A stretch of 38,522 nt of DNA from positions 1 to 38,522 of IMG/VR virus record IMGVR_UViG_3300033149_003124; one strand, 5' to 3'. Below the pieces are notes generated by a model. It had not been told where the DNA came from, did not search any database, and worked only from the letters and a program-made list of their open reading frames with translations. A program made the translations under genes and the position numbers. This stretch comes from a virus. This document shows, in pieces, positions 664 to 38,522 of the stretch (within the stretch, counting starts at the first letter, position 1; every line of letters begins with the position of its first letter).

Positions 664-939
664 ATGCCTCACCGCCAAAGCCCTATGCACGCTATCCGTG
701 ACTACTGCCTGGGCTACTGCGCACTATCCACTGACCACCGGGACTTCTGCCGAAACCCGCAGTGCCCGCTATACCTCTACCGTTTCGGCCGACCGCCGAG
801 ACCCCACGACTACTACGCCTCGCCGGGCGACGCCACGCAGGACCTCGACATGCTCAAGATACTATTCGTGGCGCGCATAAAGTCAGGCTGGCGTAACCCG
901 TTCGTCAAGGCGTCAAAAAAGGCGCGGGTCGAGCGTTGA
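664..939 (+). CDS. Small Cys-rich phage protein, zinc-finger-like
   Basis: A 91-aa protein beginning one base after the methyltransferase stop, so probably co-translated with it. Residues about 14-42 hold four cysteines spaced as C-x3-C and C-x4-C, followed by PLYLYRFGR. This pattern, an AIR..C..C.. start and a CPLYxYRxGR end, matches a small family I have met in many tailed phages; its function is unknown. The paired cysteines suggest metal binding. The C-terminal half is basic and carries no recognisable motif. The stop codon lies inside the -35 box of the next promoter. Confidence 0.75.
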   Translation: MPHRQSPMHAIRDYCLGYCALSTDHRDFCRNPQCPLYLYRFGRPPRPHDYYASPGDATQDLDMLKILFVARIKSGWRNPFVKASKKARVER

Positions 940-963
940 CAATGCCGGCAGGTATGGTATACT
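936..963 (+). promoter_or_regulatory. Strong sigma-70-type promoter
   Basis: A perfect -35 box TTGACA (936-941) and a near-consensus -10 box TATACT (958-963) are separated by 16 bp. The predicted start is about 969-971, which coincides with the first paired base of the structured RNA downstream. Short arms GGCAG (948-952) and CTGCC (962-966) flank the -10 box and could form an operator. Confidence 0.8.
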
Positions 964-969
964 GCCAGC

Positions 970-1078
970 GAACCCGACCCAAGGAGCAACGTATGAAATC
1001 AGGATCAGCGGCAGGTACCCGGGCGCTCGGAGTCTCACTCCTTGGGCGGGTTCACCCGGGGCCTGCCGCTTGCTTTTT
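970..1078 (+). ncRNA. Short structured RNA between promoter and terminator, two mutually crossing long stems
   Basis: Bases 970-986 pair with 1038-1053 over 16 bp with one bulged A (977). This stem buries the AAGGAG ribosome binding site at 981-986. Bases 1007-1023 pair with 1055-1070 over 15 bp with a small internal loop, followed by TTGCTTTTT. The two stems cross each other, so the RNA must switch between them or form a knot. A small hairpin 1029-1033/1037-1041 lies in the loop. Expected transcript size is about 108 nt. It could be a free-standing regulatory RNA, or an attenuator leader controlling the genes from 1103 on. I recognise no known RNA family. Confidence 0.7.
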
Positions 1079-1100
1079 ATCCCTTGCGGAGGTGGAATAG
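993..1100 (+). CDS. Possible 35-aa leader peptide
   Basis: An ATG 7 bases after AAGGAG opens 35 codons ending with TAG at 1098-1100, just before the start at 1103. The whole frame lies over the structured RNA and its terminator. It could be a leader peptide whose translation chooses between the two stems, or a chance reading frame. The predicted peptide has no motif. Confidence 0.25.
   Translation: MKSGSAAGTRALGVSLLGRVHPGPAACFLSLAEVE
1007..1078 (+). terminator. Intrinsic terminator or attenuator
   Basis: The stem AGCGGCAGG/CCTGCCGCT (1007-1015 with 1062-1070) is extended inward by CCCGGG/CCCGGG (1018-1023 with 1055-1060), and a T-rich tail follows at 1071-1078. It stands between the promoter at 936 and the gene at 1103. 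Confidence 0.8.
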
Positions 1101-1102
1101 CC

Positions 1103-2095
1103 ATGCCGAGAAGCGATTACATGAAGATCGAGGTCTACGGATTCCTCGATGAAGAGGCCATGTCCATGACCCCAATCGAGTTCCGAGTCTACATCTGCGG
1201 GCCATGGAGATTGGCCTGGGAAGCAGGTCAGACCCGGCTCAATAGACGCGCTTTAGTCGCTAAAACCGCTGCATTGACCGACCTCCGGCCGAATATTGTA
1301 GGCCGTGTGATACGCTCAATAATCGACAAGTACCCATCTATTGATTACCCCGACGCCCGGCGGCTCCTCTCCCTGTCCGATGACGGTAAGTACGTGATAG
1401 TACACGGGGTTGCAAGAGTTCACAAGGCCTTGAAACGCTTCGCCGACCAGCCCGAAACCACTCCTAAACCGGAACCTAAACGGGACCAGAAGCGGGAACC
1501 AAACGGGAACCAAACCCGAACCACTACACTCAGTATAGATTCTGACAGCGAGAAACGTCGCCGTAGTGGTGGTAAGCTGTCAAGGGAACGGTGTGGGGAT
1601 TCGCAGGCCGGGCCAGCCGCTCCAAAACCCCAACCACGCGGCGATGATGCTCACGCATCTGAAACCACCAACCGCTCAGAGCCACCACCTCAGCCGGTCC
1701 AGCAGGCATCACCTCCCGAGCCTGACAAGCCGCCTGAGCCCGTGGAGCCCGGCACCGGCAACGGCTATACCGCCAAGGTCAGGGACTTCGCCGCACGCTT
1801 CTCCGCCGACCCGGCAATCCAGTTGTCCGTCTCGAAGTGTCTCGCTGGTATCCTCCAGCCACGGCACCGGCAGAAGGTGCTGCGCTCTATCGCCTCCGGT
1901 GACCCGGCCCACCACTGGCGGCTTGCGGCTATCGCCGTCGAGGCGTGGCGTGACGACAGGGTCAAGCGCAAGGGAGGGGTTGTCGCGGCGAAGATCAAGA
2001 GCCGGGGGCATGAGCCGCCCGAGAAACTTGTGCGGCAGGTGCGCCTGGCGTATAATTCCCAGGGGGGTGACCGCGAAGCGGAGGAGCCGCCATAG
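1103..2095 (+). CDS. Putative replication-initiator-like protein
   Basis: A 330-aa protein; I chose the ATG at 1103 because GGAGGTGG stands 7 bases upstream. Residues about 1-115 form a compact helical domain that reads like a winged helix at the start of phage replisome-organiser proteins. Residues about 120-225 are a Pro-, Arg- and Lys-rich low-complexity linker. Residues about 230-330 form a second helical domain. This architecture and the position upstream of the sigma-like gene and the terminase would suit a replication or DNA-binding protein, but I see no catalytic motif. It may be controlled by the attenuator-like RNA just upstream. Its stop overlaps the next GTG start by one base. Confidence 0.45.
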   Translation: MPRSDYMKIEVYGFLDEEAMSMTPIEFRVYICGPWRLAWEAGQTRLNRRALVAKTAALTDLRPNIVGRVIRSIIDKYPSIDYPDARRLLSLSDDGKYVIVHGVARVHKALKRFADQPETTPKPEPKRDQKREPNGNQTRTTTLSIDSDSEKRRRSGGKLSRERCGDSQAGPAAPKPQPRGDDAHASETTNRSEPPPQPVQQASPPEPDKPPEPVEPGTGNGYTAKVRDFAARFSADPAIQLSVSKCLAGILQPRHRQKVLRSIASGDPAHHWRLAAIAVEAWRDDRVKRKGGVVAAKIKSRGHEPPEKLVRQVRLAYNSQGGDREAEEPP

Positions 2096-19037: not shown

Positions 19038-20761
19038 GCCTGACCGACAAAGCAATACAGGTATACGACGCAGGCCTCCCGAACCCGCGCTGGCGCGAGG
19101 GCTCGGTTGACGATGACACCGTCGAGATAACGGATGGCCGCGTGCTCCAGGTCAAGCAGGTCCCGGACACCAAGGTCTTGATGCAGGCGCTTGCTGGGGC
19201 AACGTATGATACCTTGCGGGAATGGGTAAACGCGACGGCCTCCGTCGGCTACGTCGAGGGCGGGGAGATAACCGACAACGGTGACGGGACCGTTGCAGTA
19301 GCGGCCGGGAAGGGCATCCTGCGGACTACCGACAGCGATATCGGCGAGACGGTGATGTTTGACTGGAGCGCCGACAGTTCGGTGGCGTTGACCAACAATA
19401 CGCTCAACTATATCACGGTATCCTACAACGGCGGCTCCCCGGTAATCGGCGTCGAGACCAACTTCGACGACCTGACCTTTACGACCCAATTCGTTGTCGG
19501 TATCGTTTACCGCGAGGGGACGGACCTCTATATCCTGCGGGCGGGCAACCATATCCCGAACGACAACACCGACAACTGCGTCCGCTTGTATCTGCGTGGC
19601 GGTGAATGGAAAAGCGGAGCGGAAACTTCAGAGACCGGCACGCGGCAACTGGCAATCACCGCCGGGGTATTCCATCTCGGCGAGACGAGGATTGACACGA
19701 ACGCCGTCGATACGAGCGTGACCGACTTCGCCGGCTACTACTACCGTGACGGCGTCGGAGGGTGGAACACGGTATCGCCCGCCACCGGGCAGATAGACAA
19801 CACGCACTATGACGACGGCAGCGGGACGCTTGCCACTCTGAATCCGAACCGCTACGGCGTGCATTGGGTCTACCTTCTCTTTGATGGACACGTTGCGGTG
19901 ATTTTTGGGCAGGGTAACTACACCCTTGCTCAGGCTGGCGAAGCACAACCGCCAGGGTCGCGGCCCGGCATCATTAACAGTTTCGGAGTTTTGGCCGCGA
20001 AGGTTATTGTCAAGAATGGTGCTTCGAGTTTGTATGATGTAATTCCCGCCTTCGGGCAAAAGTTCACCCCGACAGAGGTGTCAGACCACGGCAACCTCGC
20101 CGGGCTTGGAGATGATGACCACACTCAATATCTCCGTGCCGACGGTAGCCGGGCCATGTCCGACGACCTCAATATGGGTGCGAACGCCATTACCAATGTC
20201 GGGAACGTTGACGGCCGGGACGTATCAGTTGACGGCACGAAGCTCGACGGCATCGAGGCCGGGGCAGAGGAGAACGACCTGGCTGTCGTGGCGTCGGGAG
20301 ACAACGAGAGTATCACGACCTACAAGTCGATAACCGGCTTGTCCGCCAACAAACACTACCGTCTGTACTGGAGCGGGTGGCTGAACAACGGCGGTAACAC
20401 CGCTGATAACAAGTTCTACCTGCGCTTCAACAACGACTCGACTGCCGGGCATTACAGGGGTTACCGGCGTGCTCAGGGTAGCGCCGGGATTGCTGATTGG
20501 TCAGACACGAGCAGGCTGGAGTTTGCCCGGACCGCCTACAACAAGGACACCTACTTCGAGTTTGTCGTCGACATTTTCACTGGCGATGCCGGGTCGTATT
20601 TCGCGACCGGCTCCATCAAGGCCGCCGGCGTGACCTGGGATAATGCAAGCGACAACAGGCTGTACGTGTGGGATTCCGGCGGTGTCCTCCTTGACACCGT
20701 CGCTGCGGCTATATCGTCAATCCAGTTTGGGATATCGGTGACGGGCGCAGAGGTTAAGTGA
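19034..20761 (+). CDS. Tail fibre / receptor-binding protein
   Basis: A 575-aa fibre protein starting at GTG 19034, overlapping the hub gene by 4 bases. Residues about 345-410 contain a classic fibre signature: DHGNLAGLGDDDHTQYL followed by DGTKLDGIEAGAE, found in many trimeric phage fibres. Residues about 410-575 form a beta-rich, aromatic C-terminal head that probably binds the host. The N-terminal 340 residues include a strand-rich attachment domain. It likely attaches to the hub and determines host range. Confidence 0.85.
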   Translation: MSLTDKAIQVYDAGLPNPRWREGSVDDDTVEITDGRVLQVKQVPDTKVLMQALAGATYDTLREWVNATASVGYVEGGEITDNGDGTVAVAAGKGILRTTDSDIGETVMFDWSADSSVALTNNTLNYITVSYNGGSPVIGVETNFDDLTFTTQFVVGIVYREGTDLYILRAGNHIPNDNTDNCVRLYLRGGEWKSGAETSETGTRQLAITAGVFHLGETRIDTNAVDTSVTDFAGYYYRDGVGGWNTVSPATGQIDNTHYDDGSGTLATLNPNRYGVHWVYLLFDGHVAVIFGQGNYTLAQAGEAQPPGSRPGIINSFGVLAAKVIVKNGASSLYDVIPAFGQKFTPTEVSDHGNLAGLGDDDHTQYLRADGSRAMSDDLNMGANAITNVGNVDGRDVSVDGTKLDGIEAGAEENDLAVVASGDNESITTYKSITGLSANKHYRLYWSGWLNNGGNTADNKFYLRFNNDSTAGHYRGYRRAQGSAGIADWSDTSRLEFARTAYNKDTYFEFVVDIFTGDAGSYFATGSIKAAGVTWDNASDNRLYVWDSGGVLLDTVAAAISSIQFGISVTGAEVK

Positions 20762-20785
20762 CGGCGCGCGCCACCGTGGTATAAT
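20758..20785 (+). promoter_or_regulatory. Possible promoter before the lipoprotein gene
   Basis: A perfect TATAAT (20780-20785) lies 31 bases before the ATG at 20816. The best -35 candidate, GTGACG (20758-20763), is weak and 16 bp away. Confidence 0.35.
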
Positions 20786-27582: not shown

Positions 27583-27760
27583 GGAGCACGCGGACGCGGA
27601 AATCGGGGCACTCGTGGTCGGCGACGTGCTGGCCGCTGTCAACACCTACTACAGGTCCAATCGACTCACCGAGATAGACGGAGCCAGCGTACGTCAGTGG
27701 TTCCCCAGCCTGTCCAGTTGGCTCGATAGGGTCGAGCGTGACGCCGAAACGGGGGAGTAA
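27575..27760 (+). CDS. 61-aa small acidic protein
   Basis: Starts inside the stop of the 40-aa gene. It has a helical region (VGDVLAAVNTYYRS) and a WLDRV helix. The final residues RDAETGE and the stop are encoded by the first copy of the intergenic hairpin element, and the same C-terminal end is seen in the repeat protein at 28217. Function unknown. Confidence 0.5.
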   Translation: MGEEHADAEIGALVVGDVLAAVNTYYRSNRLTEIDGASVRQWFPSLSSWLDRVERDAETGE

Positions 27761-27811
27761 TCCCCCGTCGCTCGGGGCAAGCCCCTCCCCGGGCCTGACG
27801 AGGCAGGGGCA
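27737..27811 (+). repeat. Intergenic hairpin element, copy 1 (75 bp)
   Basis: Identical over 75 bp to 29498-29572. It begins with CGTGACGCC, contains a 7-bp hairpin CGGGGGA/TCCCCCG whose loop holds the end of the stop codon, and then GCCCCT...AGGGGC enclosing GCCT-GACG-AGGC. It ends 14 bases before the next start codon. Confidence 0.9.
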
Positions 27812-27825
27812 CGAGGAGACCTATA

Positions 27826-28131
27826 ATGATGGAGATAGTCGGATACGAGGACGGACACATGGGGTGGACGGAGGGTGACATGGTCACGGCGGACAACCTC
27901 GATGAGCGGGGTCGCGCGACGACCGCCTACGTCCGCAACGCCATCAAGTCCATGTTAGGCCGTCGAGGGACGGCCGCCGAACTCTACCGCCGAGCGTACG
28001 GGTGCCTGTCCATCGGCGATATGCGCGGCATGACGTTGGTGACCCGCGGCGGGGGACGGATCGTAGTCAGTCTCTATGACGAGCACGAGACTGGCGTGTG
28101 GGACTCGCGCGGCCGTAAGATATGGTGGTAG
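27826..28131 (+). CDS. Hypothetical protein between element copies
   Basis: A 101-aa protein (ATG 27826 or 27829) that begins 14 bases after element copy 1 with ACGAGGAG before it. It has no hydrophobic stretch. A central RGRATTAYVRNAIKSMLGRRGTAAELYRRAYG helix region (split by turns) may bind nucleic acid, and the C-terminus is strand-rich. I recognise no family. Copy 2 of the element follows directly after its TAG stop. Confidence 0.5.
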   Translation: MMEIVGYEDGHMGWTEGDMVTADNLDERGRATTAYVRNAIKSMLGRRGTAAELYRRAYGCLSIGDMRGMTLVTRGGGRIVVSLYDEHETGVWDSRGRKIWW

Positions 28132-28178
28132 CCGTCGCTCGGGGCAAGCCCCTCCCCGGGCCTGACGAGGCAGGGGCA
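28132..28178 (+). repeat. Intergenic hairpin element, copy 2 (47-bp core)
   Basis: It shares the last 47 bp of copies 1 and 3 exactly but lacks the first, stop-spanning hairpin. It starts directly after the stop of the 27826 gene and ends 39 bases before the next ATG. Confidence 0.88.
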
Positions 28179-28216
28179 CGTCGAGGAACTGAGGACGATA
28201 GTGAAGGAGAAGCGGA

Positions 28217-29521
28217 ATGGCTAAGCACGCAGTTACCCCTGTATGGCAGTGGACGTACGACGGGGACAAAGTGTTGTTGGTCAAATGGGTCAACAAGGAC
28301 GGAACATCGTATGGCGGTTTTCAATGGCCGGAGAGCGGGCCGGTTGAAGCCCCGGATTGGGACCCTGAACCTAAGTGTGGTGGCGGCCTTCACGGCTGGC
28401 CCTGGGGAATCGGTGTCGGCGCGGGGAAAGAACCGGACTATTCTGGGCGGTGGCTGGTATTCGCGGCTGACCCGGAAGACGTAGTATGGGTGGATAACGA
28501 GAAGGCGAAGTGTAGAACGGCGGAGGTCGTCTATTGCGGCCCGTGGTGGGGTGCCTACAAGTGTATCGCCGCCGGGCAAGCCGCGTGGATTCAGCACGCC
28601 GCGAGCGGAGCGGCCTCGGCAACAGGGCAGAGCGGAGCGGCCTCGGCAACAGGGGAGAGCGGAGCGGCCTCGGCAACAGGGTATAGCGGAGCGGCCTCAG
28701 CAACAGGGCAGAGCGGAGCGGCCTCGGCAACAGGGTATAGCGGAGCGGCCTCGGCAACAGGGCAGAGCGGAGCGGCCTCGGCAACAGGGAAGAGCGGAGC
28801 GGCCTCAGCAACAGGGTGGAGAGGAGCGGCCTCGGCAACAGGGAAGAGCGGAGCGGCCTCGGCGACAGGCCGGAACGGCGCAGCCTCGGCAACGGGCCAG
28901 AACGGCGCGGCCTCAGCAACAGAACAGAACGGCGCGGCCTCGGCAACAGGGCAGAGCGGAGCGGCCTCGGCAACAGGGCAGAGCGGAGCGGCCTCGGCAA
29001 CAGGGTGGAGAGGAGCGGCCTCGGCAACAGGGTGGAGAGGAGCGGCCTCGGCAACAGGGGAGAGCGGAGCGGCCTCGGCAACAGGGTATAGCGGAGCGGC
29101 CTCGGCAACAGGGCAGAGCGGAGCGGCCTCGGCAACAGGGGAGAGCGGAGCGGCCTCGGCAACAGGGCAGAGCGGAGCGGCCTCAGCAACAGGGAAGAGC
29201 GGAGCGGCCTCGGCAACAGGGCAGAGCGGAGCGGCCTCGGCAACAGGGCAGAGCGGAGCGGCCTCGGCAACAGGGGTTGGGTCGGTGGCTGCCGTAACCC
29301 AAGCCACGGAATACTCGCACGTCGAGGCCGGCCCTGGCGGAATAGCGGCAGTGATAGGCGAAGAGGTCAGGTGGACCGTACACAAGCAGGCCGTGCTTAT
29401 CCAGCGGTGGAAACACGGCAACGGTTGGCGTACAGCGGTATTGTACGGCCGTGATTATCCGCACGAGAAGACCGTCCGAATAGTGAAAGGAAAGCGCCGT
29501 GACGCCGAAACGGGGGAGTAA
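28217..29521 (+). CDS. Nonapeptide-repeat protein A
   Basis: A 434-aa protein with AAGGAGAAGC before its ATG. Residues 1-129 are a folded N-terminal domain with WQWTYDGDKVLLVKW, GGFQWP and GGGLHGWPWG segments. Residues 130-354 are 25 tandem copies of a 9-residue unit, (S/R/N)GAASATG-x, in which only the two residues at the unit boundary vary (mainly QS, ES, YS, KS, WR, RN, QN, VG). A short C-terminal domain (about 355-434) follows. The regular Ala/Gly/Ser/Thr spacing suggests a beta-solenoid. A paralogue lies at 33165. The gene stands between element copies 2 and 3. Function unknown; it has no signal peptide. Confidence 0.8.
   Translation: MAKHAVTPVWQWTYDGDKVLLVKWVNKDGTSYGGFQWPESGPVEAPDWDPEPKCGGGLHGWPWGIGVGAGKEPDYSGRWLVFAADPEDVVWVDNEKAKCRTAEVVYCGPWWGAYKCIAAGQAAWIQHAASGAASATGQSGAASATGESGAASATGYSGAASATGQSGAASATGYSGAASATGQSGAASATGKSGAASATGWRGAASATGKSGAASATGRNGAASATGQNGAASATEQNGAASATGQSGAASATGQSGAASATGWRGAASATGWRGAASATGESGAASATGYSGAASATGQSGAASATGESGAASATGQSGAASATGKSGAASATGQSGAASATGQSGAASATGVGSVAAVTQATEYSHVEAGPGGIAAVIGEEVRWTVHKQAVLIQRWKHGNGWRTAVLYGRDYPHEKTVRIVKGKRRDAETGE
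28604..29278 (+). repeat. 27-bp tandem repeat, 25 units (gene A)
   Basis: Each unit encodes nine residues. About 21 bases of each unit are nearly invariant (GGAGCGGCCTCGGCAACAGG core), and the two boundary codons vary. Slippage or recombination during replication could change the count. Confidence 0.95.
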
Positions 29522-29572
29522 TCCCCCGTCGCTCGGGGCAAGCCCCTCCCCGGGCCTGACGAGGCAGGGGCA
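29498..29572 (+). repeat. Intergenic hairpin element, copy 3 (75 bp)
   Basis: Identical to copy 1. It supplies the final RDAETGE codons and stop of repeat protein A, and ends 17 bases before the next start. Confidence 0.9.
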
Positions 29573-29589
29573 AGAGCATGAGAGGAGCG

Positions 29590-32248: not shown

Positions 32249-32601
32249 CAATGGCGGAAGTCCTGTCTATGTTTAAGTGCCACCCGGAGTGGCGGCTCCA
32301 CGAGGTCGTTGAGCCGGGGAGTGAGCTCTACAGTACCACGCGGTGCCCGAGCGGGAAAGGGCTGGTCGTCGAGAACCCGGGCACCGGGAGGGTCTATCTG
32401 GTTGACCTCAGCGTATTTGCCGACGCCACCGAGGAGGAGTTTGCGGCAATCATCGAGGGTGAGCGGGAGCCCGATCCTATCTACTACATGACGAGGATAG
32501 TCGGCTACTACAGCAGGACCACCAACTGGAACGCCTCGAAGCTGGCCGAGCGAGAGGACCGCAGGAGGGGCGATTACGCTCTGCCGGGCCGTAAGGAGTG
32601 A
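32245..32601 (+). CDS. NrdD C-terminus-like small protein with glycyl-radical motif
   Basis: A 118-aa protein with AAGGAGCGG upstream of ATG 32245. Residues 84-105, RIVGYYSRTTNWNASKLAE, resemble the C-terminal glycyl-radical segment of anaerobic ribonucleotide reductases (R-x-x-G-Y ... W-N-x-x-K). G87 is the candidate radical site. The large catalytic domain and the Zn-binding cysteine pairs of NrdD are missing. It might be a spare radical domain that repairs a damaged host enzyme, as GrcA does for pyruvate formate-lyase, or a remodelled regulatory protein. No NrdD, NrdG or other reductase is encoded here. Confidence 0.6.
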   Translation: MTMAEVLSMFKCHPEWRLHEVVEPGSELYSTTRCPSGKGLVVENPGTGRVYLVDLSVFADATEEEFAAIIEGEREPDPIYYMTRIVGYYSRTTNWNASKLAEREDRRRGDYALPGRKE

Positions 32602-32606
32602 GACGC

Positions 32607-32798
32607 ATGAGAACCGTTGAGGACCTGAGGCTGGAGGCATACGCCCGGACGCGGGACGACGGGGAGGCCGCGAGGATGCTGTCGATTAGCCGTAACGCGT
32701 TCCGCGCCTGGCGGGAAGCGCGCGGGCTTCCGCCGAAGCGGAGGCCCGGCCGGCCGCGGCTGGACGAAACCTATCTGGAGGAGACCGACAATGACTGA
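32607..32798 (+). CDS. Small helix-turn-helix protein
   Basis: A 63-aa basic protein; the ATG at 32607 follows AAGGAGTGAGACGC. Residues about 10-50 (AYARTRDDGEAARMLSISRNAFRAWREARG) form a compact helix-turn-helix of the homeodomain-like/resolvase kind, followed by a KRRPGRPR hook that would bind the minor groove. It could be an early regulator. The stop overlaps the next start. Confidence 0.65.
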   Translation: MRTVEDLRLEAYARTRDDGEAARMLSISRNAFRAWREARGLPPKRRPGRPRLDETYLEETDND

Positions 32799-32971: not shown

Positions 32972-33172
32972 ATGAATACTGACCGCATTAGCATCCTGCT
33001 TGTATTGATGGCCCTCCTGTTTGGCATCATCATAGCCCTGCTCTGTGGATGCTCCCGGGGCTATGTGTACGAGGACCATCATGGTTACCGGGACCCGCGC
33101 TGGGATATCCCGAAGGTCAAGAGCGTCGAGGAACTGAGGGCGATAGCGAGGAAGGAGCGCAAGGATGACTGA
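32972..33172 (+). CDS. Small membrane protein or lipoprotein
   Basis: A 66-aa protein. Residues 6-24 are a strongly hydrophobic helix ending LLCGC-S (C25/C27), which may serve as an unusual lipobox. The tail is charged. The ribosome site is weak. It overlaps the repeat gene B by 8 bases. A role at the inner membrane is likely. Confidence 0.55.
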   Translation: MNTDRISILLVLMALLFGIIIALLCGCSRGYVYEDHHGYRDPRWDIPKVKSVEELRAIARKERKDD

Positions 33173-34238
33173 GCACGCAGTTACCCCTGTATGGCAGTGG
33201 ACACACGACGGAGACAAAGTACTGCTGGTGAAGTGCGTCAACAAGGACGGAACATCGTATGGCGGTTTTCAATGGCCGGAGAGCGGGCCGGTCGAAGCCC
33301 CGGATTGGGACCCTGAACCTAAATGCGGCGGCGGCCTCCACGGCTGGCCCTGGGGAATCGGTATCGGCGCGGGGAAAGAGCCAGACTATTCTGGGCGGTG
33401 GCTTGTGTTCGCGGCTGACCCGGAAGACGTAGTATGGGTGGATGACAAGGCGAAGTGCCGAAAGGCCGAAGTGGTCTATTGCGGCCCGTGGTGGGGTGCC
33501 TATGCGCGTATACTGCCAGGTCGGGAAGCATGGATTCAGCACGCCGCGAGCGGAGCGGCCTCGGCAACAGGGTGGAGAGGAGCGGCCTCGGCAACAGGGA
33601 AGAGAGGAGCGGCCTCGGCAACAGGGTGGAGAGGAGCGGCCTCGGCAACAGGGGAGAGCGGCGCGGCCTCGGCAACAGGGGAGAGAGGAGCGGCCTCAGC
33701 AACAGGGGAGAGAGGAGCGGCCTCAGCAACAGGGTATAGCGGGGCGGCCTCGGCAACAGGGTGGAGAGGAGCGGCCTCGGCAACAGGGGAGAGCGGCGCG
33801 GCCTCGGCAACAGGGCAGAGGGGAGCGGCCTCGGCAACAGGGTGGAGAGGAGCGGCCTCGGCAACAGGGTGGAGAGGAGCGGCCTCGGCAACAGGGCAGA
33901 GAGGAGCGGCCTCGGCAACAGGGTGGAGAGGAGCGGCCTCGGCAACAGGGCAGAGAGGAGCAGCCTCGGCAACAGGGTGGAGAGGAGCGGCCTCGGCAAC
34001 AGGGGAGGAATCAATCGCCGCTGTCACCCAAGCCACGGAATACTCGCACGTCGAGGCCGGCCCGGGCGGAATAGCGGCAGTAATCGGGGAGGTGGTCCAC
34101 TGGACGGTCCATCGGCAGGCCGTGCTTATCCAGCGGTGGAAACACGGCAACGGTTGGCGTACAGCGGTATTGTACGGGCGGGATTATCCGCACGAGAAGA
34201 CCATCCGAATAGTGAGAGGAAAGCGCCGTGATGACTGA
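33165..34238 (+). CDS. Nonapeptide-repeat protein B
   Basis: A 357-aa paralogue of the protein at 28217, with a closely matching N-terminal domain (residues 1-128) and C-terminal domain. It carries 17 tandem copies of (S/R)GAASATG-x (residues 129-281) in place of 25. The boundary pair is more often WR, ER, QR and KR than in protein A. The DNA of the N-terminal part is also closely similar, so duplication is recent. Unlike gene A it is not bracketed by the intergenic element. Function unknown; no signal peptide. Confidence 0.8.
   Translation: MTEHAVTPVWQWTHDGDKVLLVKCVNKDGTSYGGFQWPESGPVEAPDWDPEPKCGGGLHGWPWGIGIGAGKEPDYSGRWLVFAADPEDVVWVDDKAKCRKAEVVYCGPWWGAYARILPGREAWIQHAASGAASATGWRGAASATGKRGAASATGWRGAASATGESGAASATGERGAASATGERGAASATGYSGAASATGWRGAASATGESGAASATGQRGAASATGWRGAASATGWRGAASATGQRGAASATGWRGAASATGQRGAASATGWRGAASATGEESIAAVTQATEYSHVEAGPGGIAAVIGEVVHWTVHRQAVLIQRWKHGNGWRTAVLYGRDYPHEKTIRIVRGKRRDD
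33549..34007 (+). repeat. 27-bp tandem repeat, 17 units (gene B)
   Basis: The same 27-bp unit as in gene A, with the same invariant core and the same variable boundary codons. Confidence 0.95.
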
Positions 34239-38407: not shown

Positions 38408-38522
38408 ATGCTGACGCCCTACTACTCCGAAGACGGCATAACAATCTATCACGGTGACTGTCTGGAGATACTGCCGCAGTTGCCGGAAGACAGCGTGGAC
38501 CTGGTACTGACGGACCCACCGT
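38408..38522 (+). CDS. 5' part of the DNA amino-methyltransferase
   Basis: The true start codon ATG (38408) with GAGGAG upstream. The window ends in codon 39, in the TDPPYG motif. The rest is at 1-662, and the overlapping 114 bases are identical. Confidence 0.92.
   Translation, partial: MLTPYYSEDGITIYHGDCLEILPQLPEDSVDLVLTDPP
38409..38522. repeat. Terminal direct repeat, right copy
   Basis: Identical to bases 1-114. Confidence 0.97.

Follow-up and report, generated by a model that had tools for sequence, protein, structure and literature searches.

The window analysed here is an entire IMG/VR virus record of 38,522 nt, the ends of which carry a 114-bp terminal direct repeat (positions 1-114 and 38409-38522), and the record can therefore be taken as a circularly closed phage genome of ~38.4 kb. 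All recognised phage genes lie on the + strand, so that the genome is one-directional. At the locus of interest, a DNA methyltransferase gene ending at 662 and a gene for a 91-aa protein (664-939) are followed by a short element carrying a promoter and a terminator, then by a gene for a 330-aa protein (1103..2095), a gene for a sigma-region-4 protein (2095-2562) and the genes for the small and large terminase, portal and head, all on the + strand. Searches of Pfam and PHROGs with the 330-aa product gave no match, and an AlphaFold model of its N-terminus had a pLDDT of 38, too poor for use. The gene can be called replication-initiator-like only by its position and layout; judged by eye, a distant phage (L009) encodes an apparent replication-type protein in the corresponding position behind its methyltransferase.

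The promoter, of the sigma-70 type, comprises TTGACA (936-941), a 16-bp spacer and TATACT (958-963), with a TG preceding the -10 hexamer as in extended -10 promoters. This + strand site (936-963) is the only 11/12 sigma-70 match in the 38.5 kb, and this sole consensus promoter of the genome precedes the packaging and structural genes. Transcription is predicted to start at about G970, 7 nt past the -10. Together with a U-tract downstream, this spacing predicts a terminated leader RNA of about 108-109 nt on the + strand (970..1078), with a fold z-score of -2.46 against shuffles. Two minor features may mark an operator: a dyad, GGCAG-N10-CTGCC, that lies over the -10 (947..966) and is a weak candidate with arms of just 5 bp, and the 9-mer CGGCAGGTA, found in the promoter spacer (946-954) and again in the 5' arm of the terminator stem described below (1009-1017). 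A second promoter-like site, GTGACG-16-TATAAT (10/12), occupies a 54-nt intergenic gap at 20758-20785. On the minus strand there is no promoter of at least 9/12 near the element, and a pT181-like antisense control was rejected.

Three helices are predicted within the leader, from stem searches and folding. The first, S1, is a stem of 16 bp in which the 5' arm (970..986) pairs with the 3' arm (1038..1053) as 970-976/1047-1053 and 978-986/1038-1046, leaving A977 bulged. Its 5' arm contains a Shine-Dalgarno (SD) sequence, AAGGAG (981-986), and its 3' arm the anti-SD CUCCUU. The second, S2, is the terminator stem, 15 bp between 1007..1023 and 1055..1070 (1007-1015/1062-1070 and 1018-1023/1055-1060, with U1016-A1017 opposite G1061 as an internal loop). 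Directly 3' of S2 lies UGCUUUUU, the terminator U-tract being TGCTTTTT (1071..1078). The third is P3, a hairpin nested in the S2 loop (1024..1048) that pairs 1024-1033 with 1037-1041 and 1044-1048. An earlier note on this DNA had described a promoter-RNA-terminator unit whose first long stem begins at the RNA 5' end and sequesters AAGGAG; the 11/12 promoter, the terminator stem and its U-tract bear out the unit, the predicted start at G970 coincides with the first base of S1, and 981-986 indeed falls inside the S1 5' arm. The pairing had also been called perfect, which is slightly wrong given one defect per stem (the S1 bulge and the S2 internal loop). Nor do the two stems compete base for base, as had been proposed: although they cross, S1 and S2 have no nucleotide in common, and it is P3, which uses the S1 3' arm, that is the direct base competitor of S1.

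To gauge the chance level of this arrangement, we scored crossing pairs of stems in 17,091 dinucleotide shuffles of the 109 nt. A crossing pair as strong as S1 and S2 (score 40; best shuffle 32) occurred in none, while a single stem as strong as S1 appeared in 19 of them, about 0.1%. In a scan of the window and 166 fetched phage loci, both strands, about 1.3 Mb in all, the S1/S2 pair ranked at the top of all crossing pairs; outside the window the next best, which lacks a U-tract, scored 37.5 and the best pair that has one 33, and within the window the next reached 35.0, on the minus strand (29.5 when a slightly different routine had earlier been run on the plus strand). The claim that the crossing stems are improbable by chance is thus upheld. 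A stem at the terminator is what any transcription unit would have; the feature that goes beyond this is S1, at odds of about 1 in 1000. We conclude that the element is real and non-random, while its function is inferred from one genome.

The SD sequence hidden in S1 belongs to an open reading frame that the earlier note had missed. Six nucleotides after AAGGAG lies an AUG (993), the start of a 35-codon leader ORF on the + strand (993..1100; product MKSGSAAGTRALGVSLLGRVHPGPAACFLSLAEVE) that stays open through S2 and the U-tract. Its stop (1098-1100) falls 2 nt before the next ATG, between the SD of the downstream gene (GGAGG, 1088..1092, itself within the leader ORF) and the AUG of that gene (1103). 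Sites of the AAGGAG-N6-AUG type number about 25 on the + strand, where nearly all coincide with a predicted gene start or share its frame; the non-coding strand of the 38.5 kb has 3, and the SD-AUG at 981-995 is therefore unlikely to be a chance occurrence (roughly 1% in 109 nt, by our estimate). The codon score of the leader ORF, -2.0, is indecisive, lying between the in-frame 5th percentile (-1.5) and the out-of-frame 95th percentile (-4.3); constraints imposed by the structure could be the reason for this intermediate value. The product MKSGSAAGTRALGVSLLGRVHPGPAACFLSLAEVE contains no run of regulatory codons, the element has no known ligand, and an amino-acid attenuator was rejected on the lack of a codon run. 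The promoter, terminator, S1, S2, P3, the SD-AUG and the layout of the ORF are all evident from the sequence itself; an intrinsic terminator lies inside a leader ORF with a good SD, as in attenuators of the pyrBI type.

Free energies computed with ViennaRNA were -28.1 kcal/mol for S1, -30.1 for S2, -43.0 for S2 with P3 and -48.4 for the full MFE structure. A pseudoknot containing both S1 and S2 scored about -58 kcal/mol, against -48 for the best knot-free fold, a value that is only indicative since it uses a rough Dirks-Pierce-like penalty. The loops of such a knot would measure 20 nt (987-1006), 14 nt (1024-1037) and 1 nt (1054), a geometry that would be tight yet may be feasible. In predicted nascent folding, S1 would be complete before the 3' arm of S2 emerges: its probability is 0.94-1.0 with about 1045 to 1066 exposed, and S2 with P3 takes over from 1069. 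Folds constrained by a ribosome predict that S2 is lost with the ribosome at codon 5 or 12, that its outer pairs can re-form (0.58) with the ribosome at codon 18, and that a ribosome parked on the AUG blocks S1 and leaves S2 at 0.73-0.86.

Rfam 15 covariance models gave no match to the leader RNA at the gathering score, and a permissive search returned only chance-level matches, to two microRNA models and one lncRNA model. This agrees with the earlier statement that the element matches no RNA family, and a known riboswitch or other Rfam RNA was rejected. In viral, genome, phage and plasmid collections we found no relative keeping the flanks of the element. The viral contigs held no close kin of the 330-aa protein, TerL, capsid, portal or the 91-aa upstream protein, nor the genome contigs of the 330-aa protein or TerL; the nearest TerL (L088) is about 40% identical and its gene order is different. 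Relatives of the methyltransferase (L008-L010, up to 58%) were set aside, other genes lying downstream of theirs. A DNA pattern for the S1 core had five matches in the viral contigs, chance-like by eye, and the phage and plasmid DNA searches yielded nothing useful. In two other phage contigs (L133:1593-1699 and L150:1672-1928), a short RNA and a strong terminator come after a strong promoter that holds a dyad between its -35 and -10, in a structure unlike that of the window's element.

We propose, at a probability of roughly 45%, that the element is a cis-acting, translation-gated transcription attenuator heading the operon of the 1103 gene, the sigma-like gene and the terminase genes. Its position just upstream of the gene at 1103 supports the earlier suggestion that it is placed to control downstream genes. 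On our best reading, S1 would govern ribosome loading on the leader, combining pyrBI-like attenuation with IsrK-like translational coupling. When the promoter fires, the SD (981-986) and AUG (993) would emerge first and stay open until the S1 3' arm (1038-1053) has been made, a window of ~50 nt of transcription to judge from the layout. A ribosome loaded in that window would translate through the S2 arms, so that the terminator could not form and RNA polymerase would read on; the ribosome would finish at 1100 and hand over to the start of the next gene at 1103. Without a ribosome, S1 would shut the leader start and S2 would form, either with P3 or knotted with S1, leading to termination near 1078 and release of a dead-end RNA of ~108 nt. 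Within this scheme the folding order and the block of S2 by ribosome positions are predictions of the folding models, and the loading, the readthrough, the coupling and a signal setting the balance are what the layout would imply. Coupling to the 1103 gene is suggested by the end of the leader ORF at the next start; against it, that gene is preceded by an SD of its own, which may make coupling unnecessary. In E. coli, the terminator of the pyrBI attenuator is located within a leader peptide gene of 135 bp, and it is suppressed when ribosomes follow the polymerase closely (PMC4824070; also PMC5021804). One study reports that ribosomes do little to suppress a terminator situated within the first ~100 bp of an ORF unless the polymerase pauses (PMC4824070). 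The S2 stem lies 14-77 nt past the A of the leader AUG, which counts against our reading given that caution.

The strongest rival, though in our judgement unlikely, casts S1 as an antiterminator. S1 would form first, take the P3 strand and hinder the closing of S2, sterically or topologically; readthrough would be the default, and the terminator would be freed by the binding of a ribosome, a protein or a ligand to the 5' arm, leader translation not being required. The nascent folds fit this, with S1 at a probability of ~1.0 until 1066 is exposed, by which time the polymerase would be at or past the U-tract, and S2 with P3 winning only from 1069; so does the constrained fold with a ribosome at the AUG, in which S1 is blocked and S2 remains. 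However, S1 need not stop S2, because the stems have no common base and the fold with both scores better, if only under the rough penalty, and loops of 20, 14 and 1 nt might still permit the knot. The SD-AUG and the ORF layout are also left unexplained. Very unlikely, in our view, is a late gate of the lambda PR'-tR' kind, in which a constitutive promoter with a proximal terminator is overcome by a Q-like protein or an HK022 put-like RNA. It would suit the sole consensus promoter preceding the packaging and structural genes, the two sigma-like proteins encoded by the phage, and the promoter-proximal terminators that follow strong promoters in seven other loci of the set; but in the ORFs scanned with PHROGs and Pfam, many of which are without a match, we recognised no antiterminator, Q-like or otherwise, Rfam gave no match either, and S1 is given no role.

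Least probable, and about equally so, are a role for the RNA in trans and no role for S1 at all. As a stable small RNA, the leader could act like Gifsy-1 IsrK on its own readthrough mRNA, or through CUCCUU on start sites of the phage. Pairing at both ends would favour stability, IsrK provides the precedent (PMC4825925), and 1032-1044 is complementary over 13 nt to 32592-32604, the SD region of a small gene starting at 32607. The trans role raised in the earlier note nevertheless fares poorly, since phage-wide complementarity is at chance level (top score 34, against shuffled-RNA maxima of 30.5-38.5), and complementarity to the readthrough part (1079-1400) never extends beyond 11 nt. That S1 is instead a chance pairing, in an otherwise ordinary promoter unit insulated by its terminator, gains from the presence of the element in a single genome, with no covariation evidence; it has to contend with the absence of such a pair from all 17,091 shuffles, with the 1-in-1000 rarity of a stem of S1 strength, and with the fact that S1 starts at the predicted +1 and covers an SD of the type found at genes.

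Attenuation by a leader ORF and a terminator is of a known kind; what sets the element apart is the SD-hiding stem that crosses the terminator. As in E. coli pyrBI (pyrL), where a ribosome following the polymerase suppresses it, an intrinsic terminator lies in a short leader ORF. Unlike pyrBI, which heads a pyrimidine operon and has UTP-sensitive pausing, the element belongs to a phage, offers no evidence for such pausing, and has an extra 16-bp stem, crossing the terminator, in which the SD of the leader itself is hidden. The Gifsy-1 IsrK short RNA arises by termination, and the upstream orf45, with a structured RBS, is coupled to anrP (PMC4825925). Our element resembles this system in its phage promoter, short terminated RNA, readthrough mRNA and upstream ORF with a structured RBS before the next gene, coupling having been shown for orf45 and being only proposed here. 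It differs in that orf45 lies beyond the IsrK terminator, whereas the phage leader ORF starts before its terminator and runs through it, and in that the leader has neither an Rfam match nor a complementary trans target above shuffled RNA. The LEU element of actinobacterial leuA also combines a leader ORF, a pseudoknot-capable leader and an alternative fold involving an SD (PMC1262725), but the phage leader has no Leu codon run, one of its stems is a terminator, and the SD that it hides serves the leader ORF. P4-type immunity (CI RNA, seqA/seqC) is a phage precedent for premature termination ahead of replication genes; it works through an antisense RNA that is processed and has complementary sites, none of which were found in this phage. 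The 6S RNA of lambda PR'-tR' is a short terminated RNA ahead of phage genes, as the leader would be, and HK022 put offers the likeness of an RNA element acting on termination; unlike in those phages, no Q-like protein or put-like element was recognised here.

If the translation-gated attenuator is real, the phage would read host translational capacity in a window of ~50 nt of transcription to commit its main operon, and the gate would need no protein, only an intrinsic terminator and a crossing stem that hides an SD. The element would, moreover, offer a small system in which to ask if long crossing stems can form fast enough to halt RNA polymerase. It is a further step, and quite an unlikely one, that it represents a novel attenuator class, two crossing full-turn stems (16 and 15 bp) being combined such that the 5' stem closes the ribosome site and its knot with the terminator is the OFF state, with ribosome loading in a fixed window of transcription time choosing between a dead-end RNA and the main operon.

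Elsewhere in the genome, a GC-rich 79-nt repeat that looks structured occurs in or near gaps between genes at 27737-27815, 28104-28182 and 29498-29576, two copies being 99% alike and the third having the second half in common. Two collagen-like/DUF7666 genes (28203-29521 and 33151-34238) carry 27-nt repeat arrays, and their first ~299 nt are 90% identical, indicating a duplication.
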